From IMG/VR virus record IMGVR_UViG_3300036768_000407, positions 1 through 35,229 of that record: a stretch of 35,229 nt of DNA. The stretch is one strand, 5' to 3'. The notes under the pieces are model-generated. The model was given only the letters and a program-made list of their open reading frames with translations, made no database searches and was not told where the DNA came from. A program made the translations under genes and the position numbers. Below are positions 2,269 through 27,700 of this stretch, in pieces; position 1 is the first letter of the stretch, and every line of letters starts with the position of its first letter. The DNA is from a virus.

Positions 2269-2488
2269 AAATCACTTCCTGAAGTTCCATCAAAAATCTA
2301 AGCTGAGCAGCATACACAACCAAGTGGTCATCTCTTAGAGTGGATGCTACGGCTTTAACCAGTTTTTCCTTTTCGTTTCCAAGAAGCTTTTGTAGCCTCT
2401 TTCCCATCGGAGTGTTCAGCCACTCTTGAAGCTGAATCTTTTTCTTTTCCTCCTCCGGTCTCAACAATTTTGACAGTTCCATCTTCAT
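2234..2488 (-). CDS. Small conserved-position head protein of unknown function
   Basis: 84 residues, Lys/Glu-rich, probably all helical (starts MKMELSKLLRPEEEKKK). No recognised domain or motif. It overlaps the portal stop by 4 bp and the next gene by 35 bp, so it is translationally embedded in the portal-scaffold pair and very likely real. The location suggests a minor head or assembly cofactor; that is inference only. Confidence 0.65.
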   Translation of the reverse strand: MKMELSKLLRPEEEKKKIQLQEWLNTPMGKRLQKLLGNEKEKLVKAVASTLRDDHLVVYAAQLRFLMELQEVIYDHNRFFDRTD

Positions 2489-4110
2489 TTGCTTTTAGCG
2501 TTTTCATCTTGCTTCAATATCTCCGTTGCTTGTTTCACCACTTCCACTGCCTTTGGGTCTTTTATTGCACCCTCATGAATTGCAGATGCCAAAATCTGCA
2601 ATAGGGCAGCAGAGAGTGCTTTGAATTTGTCACCGCCTTGTGACAAAAGTTTCAAATAGCTTTCAGCTTCATTCGGAAACATATTTTTGATTAAGTCCCG
2701 AATGAAAACATCTTTGGCCCCAGTAGAGCCAATCACAGGCAGCATTTGGGTCATCAAAGAAATCTTTTGCTGTCTCTCAACAAAGTCCACATCACCAGAA
2801 GGAATAATCACATAGTTGCCATAGGCATAAAGGCTTTTTAGCTCATCATCAACTTTGATTAGGCCGCCAAAAATTCTGCTTCTGATGATTTCAAAAGCTA
2901 CTGTGTAAAGCTCTGTTAGTGCGGCTGAAAACAAATTTAGTTGGGCCGCCGAAAGCATTTGGGCGCTCATCATTGAGGCTTGAATCTCCGTAGCGGTTTT
3001 TCTGCTATCTTTGCGATTTTGGGCAGCATAATTGACTTGAGAAATCTCCTGAACATTCATTGTCATTAGGGCTTGAATTGCTGAGAGCATTGTGGGGTCA
3101 GGTGGCTTGAGTTGGAATTGCACCACTGGCGCTGAGATGACATCTCCACTTTTCAAAGCTGTGTGTTGCAAACCAATTTCTTCACTTGTTGGGCCTAAAT
3201 CTGTGTTACGAGCAAAAAGCAAATAAGAGCCTCTCCTATGAGCAGTCACAAAGCTGGACATAAGAGAGGTCACAGCTTCTTGAGTGTCTTGGTCAAGATA
3301 GACTCTGCCACGGAGTTTTTGCAAAGTTGTGTTTTCTGTCAAAAGGTATGGGAAGATTACAAATGGATAGTCAACTTCTGGAATATTTTTGTTGTTGTAG
3401 CGGCCAATATAAAGTGGAGATGGCTCTTTTAGCCACTCATCACAATGTTCTACTGCTGACCAGCCAACATGCACAACTCCATCTTTGCGGAAAAAGACTT
3501 TCTCAACTTCTATGTAGGATTTATCTCTGGTTTCTCTGAAGCTTTCAACAATTTTGTCAATATATTCTTGATTGAAACCTAGAGAAACCAGTTTGCGGAG
3601 TTGGGATTTTGTGAAATAGAAAATTCTAATCAGAGTTTCGCAACTCTGAATATCCATTGTGTCTTTTGGGAAGCCAAAGCAGCCAAAATCTACATCTTGA
3701 AAGACAAGATTTCCTGGCTTGGTGATGTCTGGGACAATTTCACAAATGCCGAAGCCATTTTGTTGCATTCCATCAATGATTCTGTAGATTGGAAATTGCC
3801 AGCCACTATATCTGACTCTGTTTGTGAAATCTTTTTCAAGTCTTTCTGTGACAAAGTCTCTGCCAATTGGTTTGAAGATTGCGGCTCTTGTGGATTGGGA
3901 GAGATAAGCTATGTAGGCGGCTTGCTCTCTGCGGATGTTGGAATCAATAATGTGCTGAGGGACAAAAATCTCATCTTCAGAGAGTTTATTCTCTCTGCGT
4001 AGTGCCTCAGTGTCAATCTCAATATACCTGAGCTTTCTGTTTAGCTCAAGTCTAGTGCGTTGCTCTGAGGCGACAGTTCTTAGGTCTCGGATTTTATCCA
4101 AGAGTTCCAT
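2485..4110 (-). CDS. Portal (head-tail connector) protein
   Basis: 541 residues, the size of T7-type portals (T7 gp8 is 536). Portals form the dodecameric ring at one capsid vertex through which DNA is packaged and ejected. I assign it from length, position directly after TerL plus one small gene and before scaffold and capsid, and the overall look: helical N-terminal arm, a beta-rich wing near residues 100-250, and a long helical C-terminal section from about residue 340 (NVQEISQVNYAAQNRKDSRK then repeated helices) typical of podoviral connectors. It starts at ATG 4110, immediately adjacent to the stop of the preceding gene at 4111. No frameshift or truncation is seen. No single signature motif proves the family. 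Confidence 0.85.
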   Translation of the reverse strand: MELLDKIRDLRTVASEQRTRLELNRKLRYIEIDTEALRRENKLSEDEIFVPQHIIDSNIRREQAAYIAYLSQSTRAAIFKPIGRDFVTERLEKDFTNRVRYSGWQFPIYRIIDGMQQNGFGICEIVPDITKPGNLVFQDVDFGCFGFPKDTMDIQSCETLIRIFYFTKSQLRKLVSLGFNQEYIDKIVESFRETRDKSYIEVEKVFFRKDGVVHVGWSAVEHCDEWLKEPSPLYIGRYNNKNIPEVDYPFVIFPYLLTENTTLQKLRGRVYLDQDTQEAVTSLMSSFVTAHRRGSYLLFARNTDLGPTSEEIGLQHTALKSGDVISAPVVQFQLKPPDPTMLSAIQALMTMNVQEISQVNYAAQNRKDSRKTATEIQASMMSAQMLSAAQLNLFSAALTELYTVAFEIIRSRIFGGLIKVDDELKSLYAYGNYVIIPSGDVDFVERQQKISLMTQMLPVIGSTGAKDVFIRDLIKNMFPNEAESYLKLLSQGGDKFKALSAALLQILASAIHEGAIKDPKAVEVVKQATEILKQDENAKSK

Positions 4111-4356
4111 TTAAGGAAGCTCCTCATTCATGTCGAATTCAGTAGGGCCTTTTCCTTTTTGCTGAGCACCCTGCTGTTGCTGCTGAAGCTTTTCTTGAAG
4201 CTTAGTGATGATATAATCAATCTCAGCGGGGGAAGCTCCAGAAATCAGAGCATCCACCTGAGATTTAAATTCATCACCTACATTATCAGCAGCATTATTT
4301 GTAGCCATAGCTGCGCCAGCATTCATTTCTTTATCAGCGTTTCTATTAGGATTCAT
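4111..4356 (-). CDS. Small Gln-rich protein between TerL and portal
   Basis: 81 residues with low-complexity ends: an Asn/Ala-rich N-terminus and a QQQQQ tract near residue 59 followed by a basic stretch. A central helix (SPAEIDYIITKLQEKL) could form a coiled coil. It overlaps the TerL stop by 11 bp and abuts the portal start, so it is part of the packaging operon. I do not recognise it. It could be a small decoration, assembly or packaging accessory protein. Confidence 0.6.
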   Translation of the reverse strand: MNPNRNADKEMNAGAAMATNNAADNVGDEFKSQVDALISGASPAEIDYIITKLQEKLQQQQQGAQQKGKGPTEFDMNEELP

Positions 4357-5803
4357 TTCTCACCATTAGGTTGTATTGTTCTATTTCTGCTTTAAGCAAA
4401 GGATTTATCTTTGCTTTTTGTCCAGACCTTTGGACAAAATTCTTAATCAGAGGAGGCGGCTGAAGCGGAGGTGGCTTAGCAACAAAAGTTGTTTTGTAAT
4501 CTGTGAATGCCAGCACCACCGCATCTGCTCTGTCTGGAGAACCGACACCTCTGAATTTTGCTTTCCTCTTAGGTTCCAAAATATAAGAGCCATCTTGCCT
4601 CACCATATAGCGCCTAGAGGAAAGCTGAGAAATCAGCTTCTGGTCATTTGGCAAACAAATTTCACTCTCCTCAAGGAGTTTCGCGAATTTAAACCAAAGC
4701 TCAGTGCCCAAATTGGCATAAGCCTTTTTGTCTCTTGGTTTAGAACCACTATTCACAAAAAACACATTCTTCCAATTGTGGCGGCTTTTCAATTCCCACA
4801 AAATTGGGCCGCCTAGGCCGCTGCTATCAGCATAAATTGGGCCAGTCACCTCATTATCTTTCAGAAGCCTATTCAAAGTGTCCACTGTCTTTGAAGTGTC
4901 TTTAGCTCTCCAAGCAAAAATCTTAGTAATTTTATTCCCGTTTCTGATTGCCAACACGGTTTCATCTCCGTCAGCAGCTAAGTCAAGCCCAGCACAGTTT
5001 TCATCTCCAACTTTGTGAGGCACATTTAGGGCTTTTGAGATGTTGAGATATGGGATTACTGTGCTATCATCTTGGGCAGCAAACTCTGCCAAGAACATGG
5101 ATTTAAAGAGAGGAGAGTTTTCTCCATATTCTGCTTTGCAATTCTCTACATATTCTGCGGGAATATGCGGGCAATCTTTGTAAGTGGCAAGATAAACTTT
5201 GTAGTTTCCTGAAGTGAATCTCTTGTAGAAAGTGCCATCTGGGAGACCGGGGGTAGAGCAATCCACTCTTTTTGTGAAGCCAGTGCATCTGGCTAGTGCT
5301 TTGAAAATGTCTTCTGGAATGGATTTGGATTCTGAAGTGAAGATTGCTAAGTGGGAATTGTGGGTTTTGGGATGCCAACCTTCTGCTCTGCCACTCTCGT
5401 CTGTCACGAAAAGTTCTATCACTGAGCCAGTGACAATATTCTCATAGTGCCTGTAGTTGATTCTCCAGATTTCTGTGCCAAACCTTGAATTGATTTGCTC
5501 ACACAGACGTTTTATGTAGGAGTTTGTTTGCCTATCTAGCTGAGTGCCGGAGGCAGAAGTCACTACGCAGGTGGCATCTTTGAATCTGCTGCCTAGCCAC
5601 ACTGCACATGGCGCTATGATGAACTTGTCTTTGCCTGCACCATTACAGGTGCAAACCACGGCCTCAAAAGGTGTGGTGGTGGCAAAGTCTTGGTGGAATT
5701 TCACTTGCCAAGGGTATAGGTTGTAGCTCCCATTTAGAAGCTCATCATCCACATACAAAAGCATCTCTGTTGGGTCATCCCAAATATCTAGGACTTGGCC
5801 CAT
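4346..5803 (-). CDS. terL: Terminase large subunit (packaging ATPase-nuclease)
   Basis: 485 residues, normal for TerL. It pumps DNA through the portal using ATP and cuts the concatemer. The N-terminal ATPase shows a P-loop NGAGKD at about residues 51-56, and the Walker B region aligns as IFTSESKSIP near residue 155. The C-terminal RNase H-like nuclease shows GLDLAADGDE near residue 270, YADSSGLGG near 330 and the DRADA motif near 423. Two oddities: the P-loop Lys is followed by Asp rather than Thr/Ser, and the usual Walker B Asp-Glu reads Ser-Glu. The gene overlaps TerS by 16 bp and is read in the same operon, under the sigma54-type promoter at 6255-6271. Confidence 0.9.
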   Translation of the reverse strand: MGQVLDIWDDPTEMLLYVDDELLNGSYNLYPWQVKFHQDFATTTPFEAVVCTCNGAGKDKFIIAPCAVWLGSRFKDATCVVTSASGTQLDRQTNSYIKRLCEQINSRFGTEIWRINYRHYENIVTGSVIELFVTDESGRAEGWHPKTHNSHLAIFTSESKSIPEDIFKALARCTGFTKRVDCSTPGLPDGTFYKRFTSGNYKVYLATYKDCPHIPAEYVENCKAEYGENSPLFKSMFLAEFAAQDDSTVIPYLNISKALNVPHKVGDENCAGLDLAADGDETVLAIRNGNKITKIFAWRAKDTSKTVDTLNRLLKDNEVTGPIYADSSGLGGPILWELKSRHNWKNVFFVNSGSKPRDKKAYANLGTELWFKFAKLLEESEICLPNDQKLISQLSSRRYMVRQDGSYILEPKRKAKFRGVGSPDRADAVVLAFTDYKTTFVAKPPPLQPPPLIKNFVQRSGQKAKINPLLKAEIEQYNLMVRNES

Positions 5804-6159
5804 GCTTCAGCTAAAAGCTTCTCCTTCCTTTCTTTGACTTTGTCAACAATCAGGGAGAGCACACTCACATTTACTTGAGGCATTTTGTGGATTTGAGGCC
5901 GCTTTTGGCCTTGGAGAGTGTCCAAAATATAAGCTGCGGCCCTTTGCCTCACAGAGTCCTCCACTGAGTTTGTGGCAAGCTCCTGCATCACATCAATTGC
6001 CACATCCTCCAGTCCTCTGTCACGCATTTTCTTTTCCACAGAGGAGATTACCATCTCCACGGCCTCTGGCTCATAGCCTAGGGCTTCAGCAATTTGGTTG
6101 TTGCTGAGGCCTTGCTCATGGAGCTTAATCACTTGCAAGTTCTCCGGACTCATAAACAA
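5788..6159 (-). CDS. terS: Terminase small subunit
   Basis: 123 residues. TerS recognises the packaging site and presents DNA to TerL. The N-terminus contains a helix-turn-helix-like segment (about residues 8-35, IKLHEQGLSNNQIAEALGY), followed by helices that probably oligomerise, and a basic C-terminal tail rich in Lys/Arg/Glu. Size and order (directly upstream of TerL with a 16-bp overlap) support the call. Two close starts exist, ATG at 6159 and at 6153 (MSPEN); neither has a clear Shine-Dalgarno. A 39-codon frame (6122-6241) overlaps this start, so translation may be coupled to it. Confidence 0.8.
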   Translation of the reverse strand: MFMSPENLQVIKLHEQGLSNNQIAEALGYEPEAVEMVISSVEKKMRDRGLEDVAIDVMQELATNSVEDSVRQRAAAYILDTLQGQKRPQIHKMPQVNVSVLSLIVDKVKERKEKLLAEAWAKS

Positions 6160-6241
6160 TCTTCACAAGGTCGGAACTTAAAACCACCTCCAAAAGCTCT
6201 TGGGGCAGCTTTAAGATTTCCTCTAATGTTAACTTTTGCAT
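6122..6241 (-). CDS. Possible small leader ORF upstream of terS
   Basis: A 39-codon frame reads MQKLTLEEILKLPQELLEVV and continues to GELASD then TAA. The amphipathic, charged composition looks protein-like. Its ATG is only about 3 nt from the start site predicted from the sigma54-type promoter, so it would be nearly leaderless. It overlaps terS by 38 bp in another frame. It could be a coupling peptide, a frameshift-linked N-terminus of TerS, or chance. Confidence 0.35.
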
Positions 6242-6254
6242 GCTTCTGTGAGGA

Positions 6255-6271
6255 AGCAAATTTTGTGCCAA
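6255..6271 (-). promoter_or_regulatory. Sigma54-type promoter for the packaging/head operon
   Basis: The minus strand reads TTGGCACAAAATTTGCT, a full match to YTGGCACRnnnnTTGCW, with 10 nt between the -24 GG and the -12 GC. Transcription would start near 6244, ahead of terS, TerL, portal and the rest of the minus operon. It is the best sigma54 match in the window. Confidence 0.75.
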
Positions 6272-6362
6272 AACATCTTTAGCATTTGATTTTGGAATTT
6301 TATTTATGATAAAATTTGAAGTGACTGGCTTCGGAAAATTTGGCTTAAAAATTGCTCAAAGA

Positions 6363-7484
6363 ATGTTTATGACTTGTTTAGATTTGTTCTGTGGATGTGG
6401 TGGATTTAGCTTAGGAGTTGAGAAAGCTGGATTACAAGTTTTAGCTGCTATAGATAATGACCCAGCAGCTATAACAGTGTTCTTTCAGAATTTTCCAAAC
6501 ATTCCACATGTTCTAGAATGTGATTTAACAAAGTTTTCTCCAGAAAAATTACACTCAATAACCAAAACAAATTTTGATGTGATTATTGGTGGACCACCTT
6601 GTCAAGGTTTTTCTACAGCGAGAGCTGAAAATTTTGGCCCAGAAGATGACCCTAGGCGGCATCTTTACAAAGAATTCTTTGCTTATATTGATTATTTTAG
6701 ACCAAAAATTTTTGTGATGGAAAATGTCCAAGGGATTAAAAAGATTGCTAGAGGCAAAATTTATGCGCAGATTTTAGCTGAATGTTGTCAACTTGGATAT
6801 AAGGTATTTTGTGAGGATATTTGTGCTTGGCTTTATGGTGTGCCACAGAAGAGAGTGAGGCATTTTATTTTTGGACTTCTTCTTGAATTGCCTAATCCAT
6901 CTTTGGAAAGGTTTATGCTGCCGCAAATTACTCTTTGGGAAGCAATTGGTGATTTGCCACCTCTGGCTGCTGGCGAGAGCAAAAATGAATATGACCTAGA
7001 ATTACGTAGGCAGCACCTAGCTAGATATGGTGGCCGCTATATTGAGCAAGTGATTGAAGTTCACAAAACAAAGGAGTTGACAGCACATTATGCTAGGCCG
7101 CATCTTGAGAGGGATTTGAGAGATATGGCAAAAATGCTAGAGGGAGAAACAATTGAGGATGCTTTACGCCGTGGAGTGGAGTTTGAGTGGCCTTGTCCAA
7201 AAAAGGGTTTTAGGGATAGATATATTCGTCAACACAGGGATAAGCTTTGCTCAACTATTTTAGCAAATTTAGGTAAAAATTGGTTCAGGTTTATTCACCC
7301 TACACAAAATCGCTCCATCACTCCTAGGGAGGCCGCAAGAATTCAGAGCTTCCCTGATTGGTTCAAGCTTCCTGTCCAGCAATCTCATCAATTCCGCCTG
7401 ATTGGTAATGCTGTGCCGCCGCTGGTGGGGCAGGCTATTGGCAAAGCAATCAGGGAGATTCTTGAAGGCTGCCCACTGCATTAG
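6363..7484 (+). CDS. C5-cytosine DNA methyltransferase
   Basis: Transfers a methyl group from S-adenosylmethionine to C5 of cytosine. All diagnostic motifs are present: DLFCGCGGFSLG (I, cofactor binding), GGPPCQGFS with the catalytic Cys (IV), MENVQG (VI), PQKRVR (VIII region) and GNAVPPLVGQAIG (X); the variable region between VIII and X would be the target-recognition domain. About 373 residues from this start. An in-frame ATG at 6306 would add 19 residues, but motif I normally lies within a few residues of the N-terminus and a TATGATAAAAT-like -10 region overlaps 6305-6315, so I prefer 6363 (or 6369). No restriction endonuclease is adjacent, so it looks like an orphan phage enzyme, probably against host restriction. 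The target sequence is not known. Confidence 0.92.
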   Translation: MFMTCLDLFCGCGGFSLGVEKAGLQVLAAIDNDPAAITVFFQNFPNIPHVLECDLTKFSPEKLHSITKTNFDVIIGGPPCQGFSTARAENFGPEDDPRRHLYKEFFAYIDYFRPKIFVMENVQGIKKIARGKIYAQILAECCQLGYKVFCEDICAWLYGVPQKRVRHFIFGLLLELPNPSLERFMLPQITLWEAIGDLPPLAAGESKNEYDLELRRQHLARYGGRYIEQVIEVHKTKELTAHYARPHLERDLRDMAKMLEGETIEDALRRGVEFEWPCPKKGFRDRYIRQHRDKLCSTILANLGKNWFRFIHPTQNRSITPREAARIQSFPDWFKLPVQQSHQFRLIGNAVPPLVGQAIGKAIREILEGCPLH

Positions 7485-7747
<263 letters not shown>

Positions 7748-7750
7748 CTT

Positions 7751-7794
7751 GTCTAGGACGGCGTGTCTAGGCTAGCGTGTCCAGGATGTCCAGG
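7751..7794. repeat. Four GTCYAGG repeats
   Basis: GTCTAGG at 7751-7757 and 7765-7771, then GTCCAGG at 7779-7785 and 7788-7794, with CTAGC between some copies. The same heptamer occurs within the promoter spacer at 9345-9361 (as its complement) and in the early leader at 10862-10868. It may be an operator; it is also part of hairpin arms in this GC-rich region. Confidence 0.5.
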
Positions 7795-7823
7795 CTAGCG
7801 CGCAACTAGGATTGCCAGTGTTT

Positions 7824-7837
7824 CGCCCGATCGGGCG
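7824..7837. repeat. Perfect 14-bp GC-rich palindrome
   Basis: CGCCCGATCGGGCG is fully self-complementary. It lies just downstream (in minus orientation) of the terminator of the 178-residue gene. It could be a protein-binding site. Confidence 0.55.
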
Positions 7838-7850
7838 GAGCATCTGGGAC

Positions 7851-7882
7851 AAAAAAATCCCCGCAACAGTGTTGCGGGGATT
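7851..7882 (-). terminator. Rho-independent terminator of the GC-rich minus cluster
   Basis: Inverted repeat AATCCCCGCAACA / TGTTGCGGGGATT (13 bp, centred at 7869). On the minus strand the stem is followed by seven Ts (plus-strand A run 7851-7857). It lies 20 bp past the stop of the gene at 7902, as expected for its terminator. Confidence 0.9.
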
Positions 7883-7901
7883 GCGCGCTGGATTTTGTGG
7901 A

Positions 7902-8438
7902 TTAGGTGGTAACGGATTCAGCGGCGGCAATGGCTCTATCAGCCGCCGCAACAATCCCGTTATTGTCGAAAAGCTGGCAATACTTTTTCCGGAGCGTTGC
8001 CAGTTCACGGACTGGAAAAGGCAGCTTTTTGATAGCTGCCCAAATTTCGCCCCTATCTGGGGCGATTTCGTCGCTTGACAAGGCAGTGGTAAACCACTGC
8101 CATGCGTGCGATTCGCCAAACATAAGCGCGGCGTTGACCGCGCCCGCAAGGCGAGAAAATCGAACGGCCATTAGCCGTCCGATTCTGTAAGGCTCCGGCT
8201 CGAATGCGTCCAGAGCTGCCCGCTCCGCCACGACGTGCATCGTATCAGAAAGCGGGCCATACGCCCGCGTGTCCAGGGCAATCGCTGCCAGCTCGCGGTC
8301 AAAGTCTTTGCCGTCCGCTGCCCTAATTTCTAGGGCAAGCCTAACTACCGCCGCGGCTTTGCTCCATCGCGGCGGCAATGTCGGATTCTGGCGGCGTATT
8401 GCCGCCAGCAGAACAGGAACGCGCCAATCCAGGCTCAT
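7902..8438 (-). CDS. Unknown GC-rich early-type protein
   Basis: 178 residues, Ala- and Arg-rich (starts MSLDWRVPVLLAAIRRQ). No motif I recognise; no signal peptide or membrane segment. The coding strand is chosen because a strong terminator follows the stop and an AAAAGG-type ribosome-binding site lies about 13 nt before the ATG; the opposite-strand frames have neither. GC content is clearly higher than in the rest of the window, with many perfect inverted repeats within the gene (for example 8082-8101, 8348-8375). Last gene of the 9273-7902 cluster. Position behind a sigma70-type promoter suggests early expression, perhaps host takeover, but that is speculation. Confidence 0.65.
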   Translation of the reverse strand: MSLDWRVPVLLAAIRRQNPTLPPRWSKAAAVVRLALEIRAADGKDFDRELAAIALDTRAYGPLSDTMHVVAERAALDAFEPEPYRIGRLMAVRFSRLAGAVNAALMFGESHAWQWFTTALSSDEIAPDRGEIWAAIKKLPFPVRELATLRKKYCQLFDNNGIVAAADRAIAAAESVTT

Positions 8439-8506
8439 GTTGTCATGCGGCCTTTTCAGCCGTCTTGACTAGGTCTTTCGCGCCTAGCAGCGCCGCGTTT
8501 TGAGTT

Positions 8507-8539
8507 ATGGCCTTGCTGTTGCGGAAACAGCAAGGCCAT
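8507..8539 (-). repeat. 14-bp stem-loop between two GC-rich genes
   Basis: ATGGCCTTGCTGTT / AACAGCAAGGCCAT with a 5-nt loop (8521-8525). It lies between the stop of the 93-residue gene and the start of the 178-residue gene. No T-run follows on the minus strand, so it is more likely an intercistronic stabiliser or processing hairpin than a full terminator. Confidence 0.7.
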
Positions 8540-8549
8540 TGGTAACGTC

Positions 8550-8831
8550 TCAGTAGAACAAAATTTCCGGCAGTTCACCACCTATCATTCTGATATAGAT
8601 AGTAGGTTCTGTTTTTGCATACCAGAGAACAGAGAAAACGCCTTTCGGTATGTGTGGCTCAATAGCCTTTGCCAAGTCCATGACTTCAAACGGTGGGCAA
8701 GGTCGCTGCCACATCATTCGGGCATACCTTTGCCAACCCGTTGATTCTAGCCATGCGTCCAACTCCGGCGTGTCAACCGCGCGCGGCGGATACTCATTTG
8801 CCTTAACAAGTAGAAAAACGTGTGACTTCAT
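8550..8831 (-). CDS. Unknown 93-residue protein
   Basis: Starts MKSHVFLLVKANEYPPRAVD and ends PEILFY; mixed alpha/beta composition with several Trp and Tyr. No recognised motif. An AAAGG ribosome-binding site lies 7-8 nt before the ATG. Second gene of the GC-rich minus cluster; separated from its neighbours by hairpins (8507-8539 and 8852-8883). Function unknown. Confidence 0.65.
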   Translation of the reverse strand: MKSHVFLLVKANEYPPRAVDTPELDAWLESTGWQRYARMMWQRPCPPFEVMDLAKAIEPHIPKGVFSVLWYAKTEPTIYIRMIGGELPEILFY

Positions 8832-8851
8832 TTGATTGCCTTTCAGTTTGT

Positions 8852-8883
8852 GCCTTGCCCCAGGGCAAAACCTAGGGCAAGGC
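8852..8883 (-). repeat. 9-bp inverted repeat upstream of the 93-residue gene
   Basis: GCCTTGCCC (8852-8860) pairs with GGGCAAGGC (8875-8883), with a nested TTGCCC/GGGCAA option. It fills the short gap between the 125-residue and 93-residue genes. No T-run, so probably an mRNA processing or stability element. Confidence 0.5.
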
Positions 8884-8895
8884 GCGTTGACGTTG

Positions 8896-9273
8896 TCAAT
8901 CTTCTACGAGAGCAGCAATGCGCTCTAGGAACGCCTTGCGGAGCATCCGCTTTTCCTCTGGTGTTTTCGCTTCACGCAGAGCTTTTTTGAATTCTGCGTG
9001 AGCTTTGGACACTTCATCTTGCGGCTCACGCAAGACGAAACCACTCTGGACCAAGCGGTCCAGGCTTGCCTTGTCCGCCGTTTCCTTTTGAACAGCGGCA
9101 CATCGGGTGTCAATCCAATCCTGCAACCAGGATTGGACGGCATCGGTTGGAAACGCCGCCATGACATCGGCGGCGTCTGCCGTCCAAAACTTCCGCGACT
9201 TGCCAAGTCGCGGGCGCGTAGAAGCAAGCCGGATTCGCACCGGCTTGCCGTTCACGATTAGCGTTTCACTCAT
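8896..9273 (-). CDS. Unknown 125-residue protein, first gene of GC-rich cluster
   Basis: Starts MSETLIVNGKPVRIRLASTR; the C-terminal third is strongly charged and helical (EFKKALREAKTPEEKRMLRK), possibly nucleic-acid or protein binding. No recognised domain. The start is supported by AGGA upstream of the ATG and by a sigma70-type promoter ending near 9339. The gene contains several perfect stem-loops (9114-9137, 9153-9176, 9193-9213, 9224-9248). It is probably an early gene; function unknown. Confidence 0.65.
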   Translation of the reverse strand: MSETLIVNGKPVRIRLASTRPRLGKSRKFWTADAADVMAAFPTDAVQSWLQDWIDTRCAAVQKETADKASLDRLVQSGFVLREPQDEVSKAHAEFKKALREAKTPEEKRMLRKAFLERIAALVED

Positions 9274-9338
9274 GTTGCTTTCCTAGGTTCACGTTGGCGC
9301 CATTGCCAACGCGGCAATCTATCTTAGATTGCACCGCA

Positions 9339-9367
9339 AGCTTAGCATGTCCAGGATGCGCCGTCAA
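9339..9367 (-). promoter_or_regulatory. Sigma70-type promoter of the GC-rich minus cluster
   Basis: On the minus strand: TTGACG (9367-9362), a 17-bp spacer, then TAAGCT (9344-9339). The spacer contains CCTGGAC, the complement of the GTCCAGG heptamer repeated elsewhere, which could be an operator. Transcription would start near 9332, immediately entering the 9311-9337 hairpin. Confidence 0.7.
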
Positions 9368-9415
9368 TACTTTTTGTAACTTTTTTCCAGAAAAATCTTT
9401 CGCAATTTGACTTTT

Positions 9416-9432
9416 CTGGCATGGCTTATGCT
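9416..9432 (+). promoter_or_regulatory. Sigma54-type promoter ahead of a candidate small RNA
   Basis: CTGGCATGGCTTATGCT, with GG (9418) and GC (9430) separated by 10 nt. It deviates from textbook sigma54 at the same two positions as the capsid promoter. An 8-bp inverted repeat CCAGAAAA/TTTTCTGG (9387-9394, 9412-9419) overlaps the -24 element. Transcription would begin near 9443. Confidence 0.6.
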
Positions 9433-9442
9433 AAGAATCGTT

Positions 9443-9669
9443 CAATAAGTCATGTTAATGATGCCATAAAAAGATTTTGTCATGTCTGTTTCTGATTGCC
9501 AACATGATTTTCTGTTATGGAAACCTGGACAAAGCAAGCCATAAGAAAGCTTTATGCTGGCAATCAGCTTTGGTTATGTTGATTTTACAGCCTTTAGGGA
9601 TTGAAAAAGCCTGTTCGCTGATGAGTAGCAAAAATACAAATCAGAGATTGCTAAAATCTAGCAATTTTT
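9443..9669 (+). ncRNA. Candidate sigma54-driven small RNA (about 227 nt)
   Basis: Bounded by the sigma54-type promoter at 9416-9432 and an intrinsic terminator at 9647-9669. The interior carries short inverted repeats and no good ribosome-binding site. A 64-codon frame (9477-9671) exists whose stop is inside the terminator U-run; its composition is unconvincing and no Shine-Dalgarno precedes it, so I favour a non-coding transcript. Function unknown; a small peptide gene is the alternative. Confidence 0.4.
9647..9669 (+). terminator. Rho-independent terminator
   Basis: ATTGCTA / TAGCAAT perfect 7-bp stem with a 5-nt loop, followed by five Ts (9665-9669) on the plus strand. The stem is AT-rich, so moderate strength. 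Confidence 0.65.
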
Positions 9670-9690
9670 AACATTTGCCAGGGGATAGGG

Positions 9691-9832
9691 GATTAGGCCA
9701 CTGGCTGGTATAGGCCTTTGCCGCTTCGCTTTTGGCCTAGGAAAAGCCTTTGGCCGGTGGCTAGTGTTCTGGACTAGGCACTGGTCAAAAGTAGCCTATA
9801 AGCCAAGCCAAAGGCCAAAGCCAGCGACCGGT
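9691..9832. other. Folded GGCC-rich element next to the iterons
   Basis: No gene. Multiple inverted repeats nest here: TATAGGC (9709-9715) with GCCTATA (9794-9800), CTTTGGCC (9748-9755) with GGCCAAAG (9813-9820), and further TTTGGCC variants near 9730. The segment can form a branched structure. It borders the GTTTAY array and may be part of a replication origin. Confidence 0.5.
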
Positions 9833-10356
9833 TTATTTTGTTTACCGGCGGCCCCCCAAAATCAGGATTTAACATTTGTTTTTCCACTTTTTTCAGAGTT
9901 GTTTACTAGCATAAGAAAAAGAGTTTACTAGCAAGTGAAAATTCCAGTTTTAACATGTGAATTCTGCTGAAATTTAAAGTTCAGTAAACAAAATAAACAA
10001 AATAAACTGCCACTATGGCACAACCCATATGACATTTTGACACAGTGATGTAACTTTTGGACGGGTTTATTTCGTTTACTGAGTTTATTTAACATGCCCA
10101 AACCTTTCATTTCTAGCATTTTCACATCAGTTTTTCTCCCTTAATAATGGCACATATTTCCATTTTACCTATGCTTAACATAGCATTTTTGCACAAAATA
10201 TTTTGCTAAATGCCCAAAAAAGTTTACCAGAGTTTACTAGTAAACAGGATAAACATTTACTCTGTTTACCAGTAAATCCTAGTAAACTTTATTTATTTTG
10301 TTTATTTTTAGAGGGGGGTAAGGTTTATTTGAGTTTACAAATAAACGCCAATAAAC
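9831..10356. other. Candidate replication origin with GTTTAY iterons
   Basis: More than 20 copies of GTTTAC/GTTTAT (either strand) fall in about 525 bp. Examples are 9840, 9901, 9923, 9984, 10074, 10222, 10232, 10264, 10282 and 10333. They cluster in two groups (9831-10088 and 10222-10356). GTTTACTAGTAAAC at 10232-10245 is a perfect palindrome. The array is AT-rich (TTTATTTATTTTGTTTATTT near 10287-10307), noncoding, and lies between divergent early promoters. Dense iterons plus an AT-rich unwinding segment are the classical design of an origin; they could also be a regulator array. No initiator protein was identified. Confidence 0.55.
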
Positions 10357-10379
10357 TTTTTGGCCCAAAACTTGGATTC

Positions 10380-10620
10380 CCGCCACGCCAAAAATGGCAA
10401 AAACCAGCAAAAGCCACACACAAATCAGGAATAGCAGCAAAAAACAAAGCAAAACACAGAAAACAAAAACCAAGTGCATCATAAATCTCAAATAACACAA
10501 AAATTAGCTCAAAAAACTTAGCCACTAGCAACATGGATTAAAGCAAAAAACAGAGACAAAATGGCACAAATGTTAAAAATCCGCCACAAAAGCAACTTGC
10601 GGCCACCAAATCCACAAACC
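10380..10620. other. T-poor, A/C-rich spacer
   Basis: No gene I trust. The plus strand is rich in A and C with few T (about one in ten bases in 10381-10500), a marked strand skew beside the iteron array. Such single-stranded-prone sequence fits an origin flank or primer region. Confidence 0.45.
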
Positions 10621-10697
10621 CACAACAAAAGGAAAGCCAGCAGCTAAAACTAAAATGGCAATACTATTTCGCAATTAGCGATTTTACCGTATTAAGC

Positions 10698-10714
10698 TTG
10701 GCACACTTTATGCT
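10698..10714 (+). promoter_or_regulatory. Sigma54-type promoter upstream of the first plus operon
   Basis: TTGGCACACTTTATGCT: perfect -24 TTGGCACA, -12 ATGCT (one mismatch to TTGCT), exact 10-nt spacing. Transcription from near 10725 would run into the operon starting at 10937. Shares a TTCGCAATT(T/A) block upstream (10668) with the site at 9416 (9399). Confidence 0.65.
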
Positions 10715-10808
10715 GCCACTGCGGCATAAGACAAACTAATGGCGGCCATAAGTCATAAGGCTAGCTCATAGCGGGATATTAGCGCGACTAAAAACTTGCT
10801 TTCTAGGA

Positions 10809-10837
10809 TTGACAAGGCGGCGGCGCCATACTATCAT
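10809..10837 (+). promoter_or_regulatory. Strong sigma70-type early promoter
   Basis: TTGACA (10809-10814), 17-bp spacer, TATCAT (10832-10837): eleven of twelve consensus positions. Start near 10844. Together with the upstream sigma54-type site it gives the first plus operon two modes of expression. Confidence 0.8.
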
Positions 10838-10865
10838 GCCACCATGATTGCGGCGCAACACGTCC

Positions 10866-10895
10866 AGGCTTGCCAAGGCAAGACAAGCCTTTTTT
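10866..10895 (+). terminator. Leader attenuator with alternative hairpin
   Basis: AGGCTTG (10866-10872) pairs with CAAGCCT (10884-10890), followed by six Ts (10890-10895): an intrinsic terminator only about 20-50 nt after the early start site. Its loop contains part of a competing hairpin CTTGCC/GGCAAG (10869-10882), so the two folds are mutually exclusive. GTCCAGG (10862-10868) overlaps the 5' arm. Confidence 0.65.
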
Positions 10896-10936
10896 GTATT
10901 GCAACACGAAACAAAACAGAAACAGGAACAAACAAA

Positions 10937-11188
10937 ATGAAACCAACACAATACACAAAGACGGGATACTATATTTCCAAGGACAAAATCCAAAACAACA
11001 CGCTTTTGGATTTTGCTTCGGTTTTCACTAGTCTTCAGGCAGTTCTGAAGACTTTCAAAAAAGAGATTGAAAATGGACAGTTTCGGCTTTACAAAGTCGA
11101 ATTTGTCCCTAGTGATGAAGATTTGAGCCAAGAGCTTATCTTGGCGAAATCCGTTCATGTTGTCGAAGAAGTCAAACTCTCAAACTAA
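10937..11188 (+). CDS. Unknown 83-residue protein, first gene of plus operon
   Basis: Starts MKPTQYTKTGYYISKDKIQN. Small, mixed charge; no recognised domain. An upstream in-frame start at 10796 would place the N-terminus before the early promoter's start site and through the attenuator, so ATG 10937 is preferred. It is preceded by an A/C-rich, unstructured leader (10898-10936) rather than a Shine-Dalgarno, a feature shared with three other operon-leading genes here. Stop overlaps the ATG at 11188 (TAATG). Function unknown. Confidence 0.65.
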   Translation: MKPTQYTKTGYYISKDKIQNNTLLDFASVFTSLQAVLKTFKKEIENGQFRLYKVEFVPSDEDLSQELILAKSVHVVEEVKLSN

Positions 11189-15464: not shown

Positions 15465-16265
15465 ATGAAAAGCACATCAATTTTGCCAGTAAAGGAGCAA
15501 GCAAAGCTCCTATCCTCTTCTTATAGAGAAGAAGTAATTAAGCAAGGTCTAATTGACCTACAACTTGTGAACTTCTACTTAGCTGTAAAGTCTTTTGTCA
15601 CAAATGACTCAGAGACAGCAAAAGAGAAATTGAAGGCAATTAGGCTCTCAAAGCGAAATGAGCCAGTGCTGATACTTGGCGAAAGTGGCACCGGCAAAGA
15701 GCTAATTTCCAGAATTCTTCACGGCAGAAGGAAAGGCAGCTTTGTGGCGGTTAACACTACTGCACTTGTGGACACACTTTTGGAGAGCGAACTTTTTGGC
15801 CACAAAAGAGGCTCTTTTACAGGTGCTTACATAGACAAAAGAGGACTTATTGAGGAGGCAGAAAATGGAACTTTGTTCCTAGATGAGATAGGTGATTGCT
15901 CTCCACTTTTACAAGCAAAACTTTTGAGAGTGCTAGAAAATAAAGTCTTTAAACCTGTTGGCGCAACGAGGGATGAACTTGTGAATTGCAGATTTGTAGC
16001 TGCAACAAACAAAAATTTAAAAACCCTTACTGGGTTTAGGCTAGATTTGCTAGAGAGACTAAGCACATTTGTAATTAGGCTAAAACCAATTAGAGAAAGA
16101 CCTCAGGATATAGAACTCTTCTGCTCTCCACAAGTCACAAAAGTTGCACTCAGTGTGTGGGAAAAATACAAAGATAGGTTTTGTCCTGGAAATGTGCGAC
16201 AATTGAAAAACATTGAGCTGAGATTTCAAGTGTTGAAAGAAGTGAAAGAAGAGGATTTTTTGTGA
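15465..16265 (+). CDS. Sigma54-dependent transcriptional activator (AAA+ core only)
   Basis: 266 residues. Activators of this class hydrolyse ATP to open sigma54-RNA polymerase promoters. Motifs in order: Walker A GESGTGKE (about 72-79), ESELFGHKRGSFTGA with the sigma54-contact loop GSFTGA (116-121; GAFTGA in most homologues), Walker B FLDEIGD (about 138-144), sensor FVAATN, FRLDLLERL arginine-finger region, and CPGNVRQLKN lid. The core is thus complete. The roughly 60-residue N-terminus has no receiver or GAF domain, and the protein ends just after the lid, without the usual Fis-type helix-turn-helix. It may act from solution, as known DNA-binding-domain-free activators do, or through a partner. 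A near-consensus sigma54 promoter follows 49 bp after its stop. Confidence 0.9.
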   Translation: MKSTSILPVKEQAKLLSSSYREEVIKQGLIDLQLVNFYLAVKSFVTNDSETAKEKLKAIRLSKRNEPVLILGESGTGKELISRILHGRRKGSFVAVNTTALVDTLLESELFGHKRGSFTGAYIDKRGLIEEAENGTLFLDEIGDCSPLLQAKLLRVLENKVFKPVGATRDELVNCRFVAATNKNLKTLTGFRLDLLERLSTFVIRLKPIRERPQDIELFCSPQVTKVALSVWEKYKDRFCPGNVRQLKNIELRFQVLKEVKEEDFL

Positions 16266-16313: not shown

Positions 16314-16330
16314 TTGGCATGGCGGTTGCT
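16314..16330 (+). promoter_or_regulatory. Sigma54-type promoter of the replication operon
   Basis: TTGGCATGGCGGTTGCT: one mismatch (T for C) to TTGGCACGnnnnTTGCT, exact 10-nt GG-GC spacing. It lies in the 133-bp gap between the activator gene and the next operon. Start near 16341; a 9-bp stem-loop (16343-16364, GAGT loop, one G-U pair) forms at the very 5' end of the transcript. Confidence 0.75.
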
Positions 16331-16398: not shown

Positions 16399-16809
16399 AT
16401 GAAGACTGAAAAAGTTACGTTAACAAGGAGTAGGGCAGCTGGATTTTCCTTCTTTATCCCGCGGCCTGAAACAATCCAAGAGGCTGTTTCCTCTTGGGGA
16501 GAAGATAAAGTCCTTGACCTTATCCTCTCTTCGGTAGAGTCAAAAATTCGGTCCAAAGCCATGAATAGGCTTGGACTTTCAGAAGTCAAACCTCAAGATG
16601 TTGAGAGTCATCTTTCATCTATGAGGGCGAAAACAGGAGGAATCCTCTTTACTGAAAAGGAGGCCGAGAATTGGTCTCCTGAGGATAGAAGCCTGTCTCC
16701 TACTGGCTTGGTGAAAAAGATTAGCCAGTTGGTGAAAGAGGGTAAGAAGGAGGAGGCCCGAAGACTCGTGGAATTGCTCAACAGTCAGATTGAGCAAGTG
16801 GTGCAGTGA
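16399..16809 (+). CDS. Unknown 136-residue protein, first gene of the sigma54-led operon
   Basis: Starts MKTEKVTLTRSRAAGFSFFI; mixed N-terminal part, then helical charged C-terminus (KKEEARRLVELLNSQIEQVVQ). No recognised family. Preceded by an A/C-rich leader without Shine-Dalgarno and a 5' hairpin directly after the sigma54-type promoter, implying abundant expression in the middle phase. A single-strand binding, regulatory or structural role cannot be distinguished. Confidence 0.7.
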   Translation: MKTEKVTLTRSRAAGFSFFIPRPETIQEAVSSWGEDKVLDLILSSVESKIRSKAMNRLGLSEVKPQDVESHLSSMRAKTGGILFTEKEAENWSPEDRSLSPTGLVKKISQLVKEGKKEEARRLVELLNSQIEQVVQ

Positions 16810-23548: not shown

Positions 23549-24765
23549 CAAATCTAGAACGCTGGCTTCTGTATATGAGGGACATAGAGTCTCCTCTAGA
23601 ATACATAAAATGGGGATTCTATTCAATGATTGCTTCGGCATTACAGAGGAGAGTTTGGCTTTATCCAGCGGATGACGGCTCACCATGTGGATTCTCACTA
23701 TTTCCAAACATCTTTGTGCTTTTGATTGGCCCTCCTGCAACGGGAAAGGGCAGAGTAATCAAGCAAGTCTCTTCAATTCTCTCTCACACCAAGCTTTGCA
23801 AAGTCACAGACTCCGGCAAGCTCAAGCCGCTGATTCAGCAGTCACCTGATAAAGTGACTTGTGAGAGGCTTATTAGGAGCATCTCAGAAGGCACAACAAC
23901 TTGTGAATATTTGGTGGGAGAGGAAAAGAAAGTTTCTGCTTTCTCATCATGCTTCTTTCTAATTGAAGAATTGGAAGTCCTATTCAATTCAAATGCTTCA
24001 GATATGGTAAGTGTTCTCAATCAGTGTTATGATGCTGGAAATCTCTCTTATGAGACAGTTTCTCAGGGATGCTACAACATAAGAAACATTTGTGTGAGTA
24101 TGCTTGCTGGCACAACACCAGAAAGCCTGAAGAATTTGATGTCTGACAAGATTGTAAAGACGGGATTTACAAGCAGAGTCATTCCTATCTACAAAGCTAA
24201 ACAAAGATTTTATAGAGTGTTTCCAGGAATTTCTAAAGAACAGATGGAGGCTGCTGATGCACTAGCTGAGCACTTAAAAGTTCTTGCCACAAAAGTTTCT
24301 GGACCAGTGAAATTCTCGAATGAAGCGGAGGAATATTTCAAAAGCATCTATGAAAGTGGGAAGATGCCTAGAATTGTGGCAAATCCAAAAACAGATTATT
24401 ACTATGCTAGGAAAAGAGTTCACTGGCTGAAGCTGGCAATGATTCTGCATTTCGCAGATGACACCTCAAATGAGATTGGGCTACAGGAAACTAAGAAAGC
24501 CCTAGAAGAATTGAATGAAATTGAGAAGGAAATGGGAAATGCCGTGGCTCCTCCCAAGAATCCACTTCACGATGCTACAATGGATATTCTGGAATTTGTT
24601 TCAAAAGAAAGAGGAGAAGTGAAATTGAAGACTTTGTGGTTTAAATTCTCAGAATTCTTGCGGCGTGAAGAATTTGATGAGTGCCTCCGCACTCTGGTTT
24701 CTACCGATAGAATTTCAGTTGAGGCTGGCGTGGTTCGATTAAAGAGCGCCTCACCTTATAAATGA
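23545..24765 (+). CDS. DUF3987-type primase/helicase-like ATPase
   Basis: 406 residues. P-loop IGPPATGKG (about residue 62-70) after LFPNIFVLL, a Walker B-like FFLIEELEVLF (about 140), and TSRVIPIY (about 215): the layout of phage DUF3987 replicative helicase/primase-associated ATPases, with a winged-helix-like C-terminus (about 345-400). Position right behind the polymerase supports a replication role. Overlaps the polymerase by 4 bp and the convergent 1968-residue gene by 65 bp. Confidence 0.7.
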   Translation: MTNLERWLLYMRDIESPLEYIKWGFYSMIASALQRRVWLYPADDGSPCGFSLFPNIFVLLIGPPATGKGRVIKQVSSILSHTKLCKVTDSGKLKPLIQQSPDKVTCERLIRSISEGTTTCEYLVGEEKKVSAFSSCFFLIEELEVLFNSNASDMVSVLNQCYDAGNLSYETVSQGCYNIRNICVSMLAGTTPESLKNLMSDKIVKTGFTSRVIPIYKAKQRFYRVFPGISKEQMEAADALAEHLKVLATKVSGPVKFSNEAEEYFKSIYESGKMPRIVANPKTDYYYARKRVHWLKLAMILHFADDTSNEIGLQETKKALEELNEIEKEMGNAVAPPKNPLHDATMDILEFVSKERGEVKLKTLWFKFSEFLRREEFDECLRTLVSTDRISVEAGVVRLKSASPYK

Positions 24766-27700
24766 AGGACTTCTCAAGGAAATCTTCCCACCTCTTTTGG
24801 GCTTCTTCTTCTCCAAAATTCCTCACCAAATAATCATAATACATTTTGCCCTCTATGAAGTTTCCTGGAAAAGTCTTATAAGCCAGTCTCACCTCAGTGC
24901 TAGAAGTTGGAATAGGGCCTTTACCTTCCTTGATAAATTTCTTAGCTTCCAAATTGATGTAGGGATTCACTTCAATATCAGAGATTGGAGACTTCCGCTC
25001 TCTGAAAAACTTAAATGTAGCTAAGTCACGATATTTCTCCCTAAGCTTGGCTTCTTCTTCATTAATGAAGTGGGCATCAATGTATCTCCAGGTTTGAGAG
25101 GCTTCTTTTGCCATATTTCCTAGCATAGTGGCAATCACTGTGTAGGGGTCTTCACCAGTGTTGATAGCCTCAATCGCATCTGAGATATTTCCAGCAATTG
25201 TCTCAGTGAGCACTGTCCACAGTGGAAAGCTCAGTGGCATATTCACTTTCAGGGTTTTGCCTTGAGCAGTGACAGAAACAAGCTTTGCAATGTCAAAGAT
25301 AATCCCGCTATAAGAGGCCAATTGCAAAAGTGAGATTGTTTTTGCCACATGGTCTTGCAAATTTCCTTCATTCATCACTTCTTTGATTGTTGGCTCGTTT
25401 GGTCTCCTATTCATTAGGAGTTCGTTGAGTTCTGAAATGCCGTAGCCAACACCAAGAGAAGCTAATGTGTATTTGAGAAGTGGAAAGACATTTCCATCTT
25501 TCACCAGCGGCTCTACAATATCCCTTGTGACTGTGTTTGCTTTCTCAATTGAGAATCTAGAGAGTGCAGCAAATGGAGCAAGGCCGCCTTTCAAAGCCCA
25601 AGCTGGCAATCCCTCCGGCCCATAAGTGCCTCTCACAGCATCTACAAATCTTTTTGCCATTCTCTGAATGTCATCTTCTGTGACTTTACGCTCAAGCAAA
25701 GATTGCCAGCCCCCTTCCACTGTGTCACCAAATCTCTGAATAAACCAAAGTCCAGTTTTGTCTCCTTGCAAAGCTTCAGCAATCCTTACAGGAGCTAAGA
25801 GTTCTCCAATTGTGTAGATGTAGTGACCTTCAAAAGCATCTGAGAAATCTCTGCCTTGCAAAAATCTAGCAAGTCTAGTGAAGGTGTCGAAGATTTTGAT
25901 AATTTGGTCAGGATTGTCAGGCACAAATCCAGCCACGTCAAAATCCTTAAAATGCTGTCTCACAGCATTTGAAGTGAAAGCCCTGACTCTGGTTTCATTT
26001 AGCTTTGCAAAAGCCTCAAAAAACAGTTTAAATTCATCTGATTTCAGATATGGTGTTACAAAAGCTGGAATGTTTGCGATATTTCTGCCTGCTGTGCCAA
26101 CACCCATCACAAGGTTTGCGGCGGCCCTAGCAGCAGCCATTGTCCTTCTGTCAAAAGTTTCTTCAACCAAATTGAAGAATTCTAGGCCTTGCCTTACTTG
26201 GTCAGTGCCGCCAATATAGTCTTTTGTGAGTTTTGGCTTGTTGCCATATTGGTCAGGAATGCCAATGGCATTTCTCACTTGCTCATCATTTTGGAGATAT
26301 TTGAAATATGCCAAATCCTTTCCTGCCCTTCTAGCATATCTATGTGCAGCTCTGAAAAACTCTTTGTCAACAAGTTCCCAAGGCAACCCTGCACCCTCGG
26401 CTTTTCTAAGTGCTGCAAATTCCACTGGTGTAATTCCACCTGAAAGTGCAAGTTTTTTGGCCGCAAGTAAATCTTCAGCTTCCTCTTTTGAGAATCCCTT
26501 CTTAATTAGATGATTGATATAGAGATTGTCGAAAACTTTGGCAAGTTCACTTGTGGGTTCCTTTGTCCACACATTAGCCACTTCAGGGTCAATCATGTTG
26601 AACATATAGCCATCTGGCCTGATGCCAGCTTGCCTGAAATGGCTTCCCTCTTTAACCTTTAGACCATATTTGATTTGCTCAAGCCGCGGCCACCTAAGAA
26701 TATTTACAACCTCATCAGCAAATCTTTGCTCTTCTGGACTTAGCTGGATTGCAGACTTACCTACGTCATCAATCTCATACAAATACTTATAAACTTTTGT
26801 AATTTGGTCATTTGTGAGACCTTCTCCAGCAGCCACAATAGAATTTGCTATCTTACCTTCTACAAAATCTGCAAAAGCATAAGCTGAGCGGAACGCTGAG
26901 CCAACATAGAAATTTAGCTTCTCTATTCTGTCAACGATTGAGCCGAAGATTGGGAGGACGATTCTACTATTTGTGGAGACTGTGGGTCTAATTGGCGAGC
27001 TAGTTTGTTCACTTCCTCCACCGGCACGTTGAAATGCTGTAGAGTATTTTTGACTGCCTCCACTTCCTCCAGCTTGCTGGCCTTTGCTAGCAAGTGCGGA
27101 GCTAATGCTAGCACGTAACTCTTTATATCTCTCATCTTTCAGAATGTTTGGAATCCCCTTAGCTAACTCATCTACATCTTTCAAGGAAAGATAAGACATG
27201 CTTGGTAGAGGGGTGTTACCAAGCTTAGGCAAAAACCTATAGAGAACACCACCAATGTCCTTATCAAGAAAGATTTGGCTGTTGTTGATTCTAGTTGCCC
27301 AAATTCTGTCTGATTTTGACAAATCTCTTAAAAGAATTGCTGATTTGATAGCTTCAGTGTTATATTGCCACTCTTTATCTATAGGAAATTTTGCAAGCTC
27401 ATCAACAAAGTTTTCTGAAATTTTCTTGATTCCACCCGATTCAACAAAGTTCTGGAAAACTTTGTAGGAGTAAAAATGAACTCTTGTCAAAACAGACGCA
27501 ATTCCACTTTCTCCGGCAACAAAGTTGTGAACGAATTCATGCAGAATCGTTGCAAAAGCATCTGAAGCAAAAGACATAACTTTCGGAGAGATGTCTGGAA
27601 AAAGGCTCTCATAAATGGGCAAAACTTCAGCTTTAGCGTGCACAAATGGCACAATGAAAACACCTGAAAGTGAGTGACGGACACCTACAGCTTCAGTAGA

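Follow-up and report, generated by a model that had tools for sequence, protein, structure and literature searches.

The window, by which we mean the whole 35,229-nucleotide stretch of viral DNA analysed, carries packaging and capsid genes on the minus strand and a gene for a sigma54 activator on the plus strand, together with sites resembling sigma54 promoters. The features are as follows; for all promoters, transcription is inferred.

1–1204, minus: major capsid protein gene, 3' end cut at the window edge (cluster 3, 21 records)
1271–1308, minus: two small hairpins with AAGGGCAT loops in the capsid mRNA leader, conserved in the capsid leaders of relatives
1328–1344, minus: putative capsid-gene sigma54 promoter, TTGGCATGCTAAATGCT, 2 mismatches; same place in 21/21 full-length capsid genes and 73/81 capsid loci
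1348–2268, minus: scaffold-like gene, inferred from its position between portal and capsid; orthologues in 21 records
2485–4110, minus: portal/connector gene, inferred from a weak phrog_332 match and position; orthologues in 21 records
4346–5803, minus: terminase large subunit gene, terL (phrog_2, E 8e-25)
5788–6159, minus: probable small terminase gene, encoding a small HTH protein, immediately upstream of terL (HTH matches PF00196 and PF13384)
6255–6271, minus: putative packaging-operon sigma54 promoter, exact consensus; comparable position in 11/17 relatives
9416–9432, plus: weaker sigma54-like site in a long intergenic region upstream of the early operon, CTGGCATGGCTTATGCT, 2 mismatches; function inferred
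10698–10714, plus: sigma54-like site before the early operon, TTGGCACACTTTATGCT, 1 mismatch; function inferred
10809–10837, plus: sigma70-like putative early promoter, TTGACA-17-TATCAT, 11/12 match, for the activator-containing operon
15465–16265, plus: sigma54 activator gene, AAA+ domain only, GSFTGA loop (PF00158, E 5e-49)
16314–16330, plus: putative sigma54 promoter immediately following the activator gene, TTGGCATGGCGGTTGCT, 1 mismatch; 19/21 records have a site in the 1 kb that follows the activator
16399–16809, plus: first gene after the 16314 promoter, no function assigned, leading into replication/recombination genes

The capsid gene was assigned from gene order and from a structure model predicted for a homologue (pLDDT 79), which matches the capsid of phage N4 and others of the HK97 fold (E 4.5e-11), the best matches being of the N4 type. 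Against N4, cyanophage and HK97 capsids the match probability was 1.00 with modest TM scores of 0.3–0.5 (top matches 0.44–0.53), and the HK97-fold criterion for a tailed-phage major capsid protein is thus met through the homologue model. The product of 5788–6159, which has orthologues in 17 records, is likely to be TerS, as inferred from its position. No family matched the scaffold-like gene. Elsewhere in the window, the minus-strand gene 24701–30607 encodes a virion-like protein of 1968 amino acids, part of which matches the HSP90/gyrase-type ATPase family (PF13589, E 1e-6). The 7500–9500 region reaches a GC content of 0.60 (0.41 overall), with a GT microsatellite near 7690–7746 and three ORFs on the minus strand that have no relatives in the lineage, and may be a recent insertion or an assembly chimera. 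The AT-rich intergenic DNA at 9880–10350 contains many GTTTAC/TTTATT-type repeats and is a possible replication origin.

Sigma54-type sites in the window

A sequence-only reading had proposed that the minus-strand site at 6255–6271 matches the sigma54 consensus fully and with exact spacing. This held, as TTGGCACAAAATTTGCT shows zero mismatches to the consensus YTGGCACRNNNNTTGCW. It is the single occurrence of the exact consensus in the window, where a mean of 0.02 is expected per shuffle (300 dinucleotide-preserving shuffles of the window). The GG at -25/-24 and the GC at -13/-12, at fixed spacing, predict an RNA start at 6244, the same position as had been proposed for the terS transcript, and 85–91 bp before the possible start codons of the terS-like gene. 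The site had been placed 96–112 bp before terS; the 96-bp distance to the TTG (6159) held, and the ATG (6153) is 102 bp away. The site lies in intergenic DNA that separates the packaging genes from a divergently oriented cytosine methylase gene (6306–7484, plus strand). The statement that nothing else of promoter quality is nearby held for sigma70-like matches, of which the minus strand has none from 5700 to 6500. Among relatives, 11 of the 17 records carrying the terS-like gene have a site (at most two mismatches) within 900 bp upstream, while the remaining six have no sigma54 site within that distance.

Two minor features were observed close to this site. A weaker sigma54-like string, TTGGCTTAAAAATTGCT, lies at 6340–6356 on the plus strand (2 mismatches), just before likely internal starts of the methylase gene. 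An ORF of 38–39 codons (6125–6241, minus) has its ATG 3 nt past the predicted start of the RNA and overlaps the 5' end of the terS-like gene; it could encode a leader peptide translated without a leader.

Four further sites of the same type, absent from the sequence-only reading, lie before other phage genes. The relaxed pattern YTGGCAYRNNNNWTGCW gives 5 matches in the window, whereas 300 shuffles average 0.11 and never exceed 2, and all five fall between likely genes. As the pattern was loosened after the sites had been seen, this comparison alone is optimistic, and the real test is provided by the relatives. The capsid site at 1328 lies past the scaffold-like gene and before the start of the capsid gene (1204), with a predicted RNA start near 1317, and the site at 16314 begins 49 bp past the activator gene. 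The site at 10698–10714 could be a feedback promoter on the early operon, a suggestion made from sequence alone. The sigma70-like match at 10809–10837 is the only one of 11/12 in the window, with 0.013 expected within 9274–11188.

The activator and its conservation with the sites

The protein encoded by 15465–16265 meets the sequence criteria for a bacterial enhancer-binding protein (bEBP), namely a PF00158 match, Walker A and B, a GAFTGA-type loop, an arginine finger and sensor II, its motifs being GESGTGKE, GSFTGA, GTLFLDE, FRLDLLERL (arginine finger) and GNVRQLKN. Its relatives in the PDB are NifA, NtrC, FleQ and PspF. A C-terminal enhancer-binding HTH, which groups 1–4 have and group 5 lacks, is the one criterion not met: the protein stops after the sensor II helix and has neither an HTH nor a receiver domain, and its mode of action would therefore resemble that of group 5 activators or FleT rather than that of NtrC. 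Tree reconstruction separates the phage activators, as one group, from the sampled bacterial activators (support 95/96). A single-sequence AlphaFold prediction of the activator reached a pLDDT of only 41. No RpoN match was found in the window, and the phage would therefore have to use the sigma54 of its host.

Relatives were collected in IMG/VR with alignment queries, since single-sequence queries with TerL, the activator and the DNA polymerase gave no matches. The activator alignment recovered 80 loci (1.07 Mb), in which the site pattern occurs 58 times at the sigma54 spacing and 0–5 times at each other spacing from 0 to 9. In the 44 whole records, a slightly looser pattern has 100 matches and the reversed pattern 3. 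Forty of these records carry matches; of the four that do not, one is a fragment of 28 kb, and the other three have longer activators (410–542 amino acids) that appear to carry a C-terminal HTH region. The pattern is also absent from four loci of TerL-related phages that the activator search did not recover. Twenty records were examined in full and their genes clustered with those of the window, with which they share genes for TerL, portal, scaffold-like protein, capsid, tail, DNA polymerase and activator. With at most two mismatches allowed, a site lies 87–195 bp upstream of the capsid gene in 21/21 full-length cases and upstream of 8/8 members of the 16399–16809 family, against a background of 108 of 1398 for all genes. 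In 19 of the 21 records, the 1 kb downstream of the activator gene contains a sigma54 site. No excess of a shared upstream enhancer motif was detected, although this test is weak.

A second set of relatives was selected by capsid homology alone, and comprises 79 viral loci and two MAG contigs. A sigma54 site lies within 300 bp upstream of the capsid gene in 73 of these 81 loci, and in 53 of the 59 that had not been selected via the activator. A sigma54 activator is encoded in 36 of 41 capsid-selected records, the five without one all being fragments shorter than 34 kb; the two MAG records contain host genes as well. In 48 non-redundant capsid promoters, TGGCA (-26 to -22) and GCT (-13 to -11) are invariant, partly owing to the two-mismatch limit; the flanks carry almost no information, so that the motif has been kept and the surrounding DNA has not. 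These observations show, at the level of sequence, that the activator, the promoter sites and their linkage are conserved across an uncultured phage lineage. Eight capsid loci, forming one subclade (L178, L179, L181, L184, L189, L200, L204 and L228), have no sigma54 site within 900 bp of the capsid gene; records of this subgroup (e.g. L184, L204) do have a site after the activator. The two MAG contigs (Deltaproteobacteria and Methanoregulaceae) might be misbinned phage contigs; they are not decisive for the host. No capsid or portal relatives were found among 50,697 GenBank phage records.

Four members of the lineage (G075, G076, G082 and G083) encode a sigma54 (RpoN) of about 430 amino acids. 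The rpoN genes of this branch (L218, L219, L226 and L227) include L273:3387-4676 and L263:15469-16764. Sigma54_DBD and the RpoN box ARRTIAKYR are found in 4/4 proteins, and the two that were scanned contain PF00309, PF04963 and PF04552 (AID, core-binding and DNA-binding domains). The capsid promoter in this branch is CTGGCATATCGTTAGCA, and the promoter-like sites before the capsid gene and upstream of rpoN have AGC, not TGC, in the -12 element. The AGC search was seeded with the capsid site, so that an altered -12 preference is only a lead. No RpoN match was found in the other 45 virus records tested, which would likewise have to rely on host sigma54.

A proposed sigma54 programme and its rivals

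We consider it very likely that 6255–6271 is a working promoter within a virus-run sigma54 programme, with transcription and rpoN dependence being inferred from sequence. In the model that we propose, host sigma70 RNA polymerase would read the early operon from 10809–10837 and the activator would be made. Lacking a DNA-binding domain, it would act from solution as a hexamer, its GSFTGA loop contacting host sigma54, and would spend ATP on opening the closed complexes poised at 16314, 6255, 1328 and probably 10698. The replication, packaging and capsid promoters would then be switched on, late genes remaining off until enough activator has accumulated. How an activator without an HTH would be specific for phage promoters is unexplained, and a partner protein that recruits it is conceivable. 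The sequence-only reading had proposed that the late packaging/head operon is sigma54-dependent and that late expression depends on a phage activator. Both proposals are supported by the activator gene, and the first also by the conserved sites, whose conservation is higher still before the capsid gene (21/21) than before the packaging genes (11/17). The regulon appears wider than the late operon, the promoter after the activator gene leading into replication genes.

The first rival explanation is that these are real sigma54 promoters driven by a host activator, which would couple phage development to a host state such as nitrogen or envelope stress, and that the phage AAA+ protein does something else. 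In its favour, host activators would be available wherever sigma54 is, and the phage protein has no DNA-binding domain with which to find its promoters. Against it, activator and promoters occur together in 36/41 capsid-selected records, with absence only in short fragments, a promoter directly follows the activator gene in most records, and no shared upstream motif for host-activator binding was found, in what was a weak test. We regard this rival as very improbable. The second is that the 6255 match arose by chance and that transcription of the packaging genes starts at another promoter. Strings resembling sigma54 sites can occur at random, and in 6/17 relatives the 900 bp before the terS-like gene contain no site; however, the 0.02 exact matches expected per window, the divergent intergenic position, the lack of a nearby sigma70-like match on that strand and the comparable site in 11/17 relatives leave this explanation with little support. 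The third, that the motif is a binding site of another phage protein (e.g. for packaging or replication) resembling a sigma54 promoter, would suit the placement before capsid and packaging genes as a structural or regulatory DNA element but can be practically ruled out, as both the spacing and the invariant bases fit sigma54, the sites are oriented towards genes from the distance of a leader, and the same phages encode the activator and, in one branch, sigma54 as well.

Returning to the sigma54 programme, a bolder reading, which we find probable, is that a tailed-phage lineage has placed its middle and late programme on sigma54 through its own enhancer-independent AAA+ activator, with one branch encoding its own RpoN, perhaps with an altered -12 preference. 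The parts are of known kinds. FlgR, CtcC (group 5) and FleT are, like the phage protein, AAA+ sigma54 activators with a GAFTGA-type loop and no HTH, and according to a review FleT is the only one known to lack both regulatory and DNA-binding domains (PMC7175178); these are bacterial regulators, whereas the activator described here is phage-encoded and lies beside phage sigma54 promoters. In Chlamydia, the late genes of the developmental cycle have been linked to sigma54 and to CtcB-CtcC, an activator system without a DNA-binding domain (PMC7482065), but that cycle is bacterial and not viral, and the activator has an N-terminal regulatory domain. The truncated DctD250 works from solution on many sigma54 promoters without enhancer binding (PMC3844500); it is a laboratory truncation, whereas the phage activator is naturally minimal. 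Phage sigma70-family factors, Mu C, P2 Ogr and lambda Q switch host RNA polymerase to late genes. They resemble the proposed programme in that an early-made phage protein leads to late genes, but they act on the sigma70-type holoenzyme or on elongation, whereas here a sigma54 holoenzyme and ATP-driven opening would be used. To our knowledge, phage late timing relies on sigma70-family factors, sigma70-redirecting activators, antiterminators or the phage's own polymerase. Neither a phage-encoded sigma54 activator nor sigma54-dependent phage late genes were found in the open literature searched (subscription journals and bioRxiv were mostly not covered), and no earlier report of a virus-encoded sigma54 was found there. 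The use of these parts as a virus developmental programme appears new.

If this is true, expression under the programme would be gated by ATP and tightly shut off in the absence of activator, a mode of phage RNA polymerase control beside sigma70 redirection, antitermination and own polymerases. Most of these phages would also be restricted to rpoN-carrying hosts, a testable prediction of host range for a lineage without a cultured member. The lineage offers many natural AAA+-only activators and their promoters for the study of enhancer-independent sigma54 activation, and one branch also offers virus-encoded sigma54 factors.

GenBank phage matches to the activator and RpoN were not counted, as by appearance they are mostly bacterial contigs deposited as phage; many "phage" records with glnL-glnG or rpoN genes likewise appear to be bacterial contigs. 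The human-faecal phage MT121960 (L005:22349-23263) encodes a 304-amino-acid sigma54-activator-like protein among replication genes; it was rejected as a further sigma54-programme phage, having no consensus sigma54 sites and a very long branch.

Hairpins in the capsid mRNA leader

The hairpins between the capsid promoter and the capsid start may constitute a new RNA element controlling capsid translation. Rfam gave no match for the window or for seven capsid loci. Stems of at least 3 bp are present in 111 of 111 leader copies from the 81 capsid loci, and the six loop copies elsewhere on the same strand have stems of 0–1 bp; the window's second copy has a 2-bp stem. Across the capsid leaders of L151-L231 the AAGGGCAT loop is invariant, there are usually two hairpins per leader, and the sequence of the stems varies while their pairing is kept.
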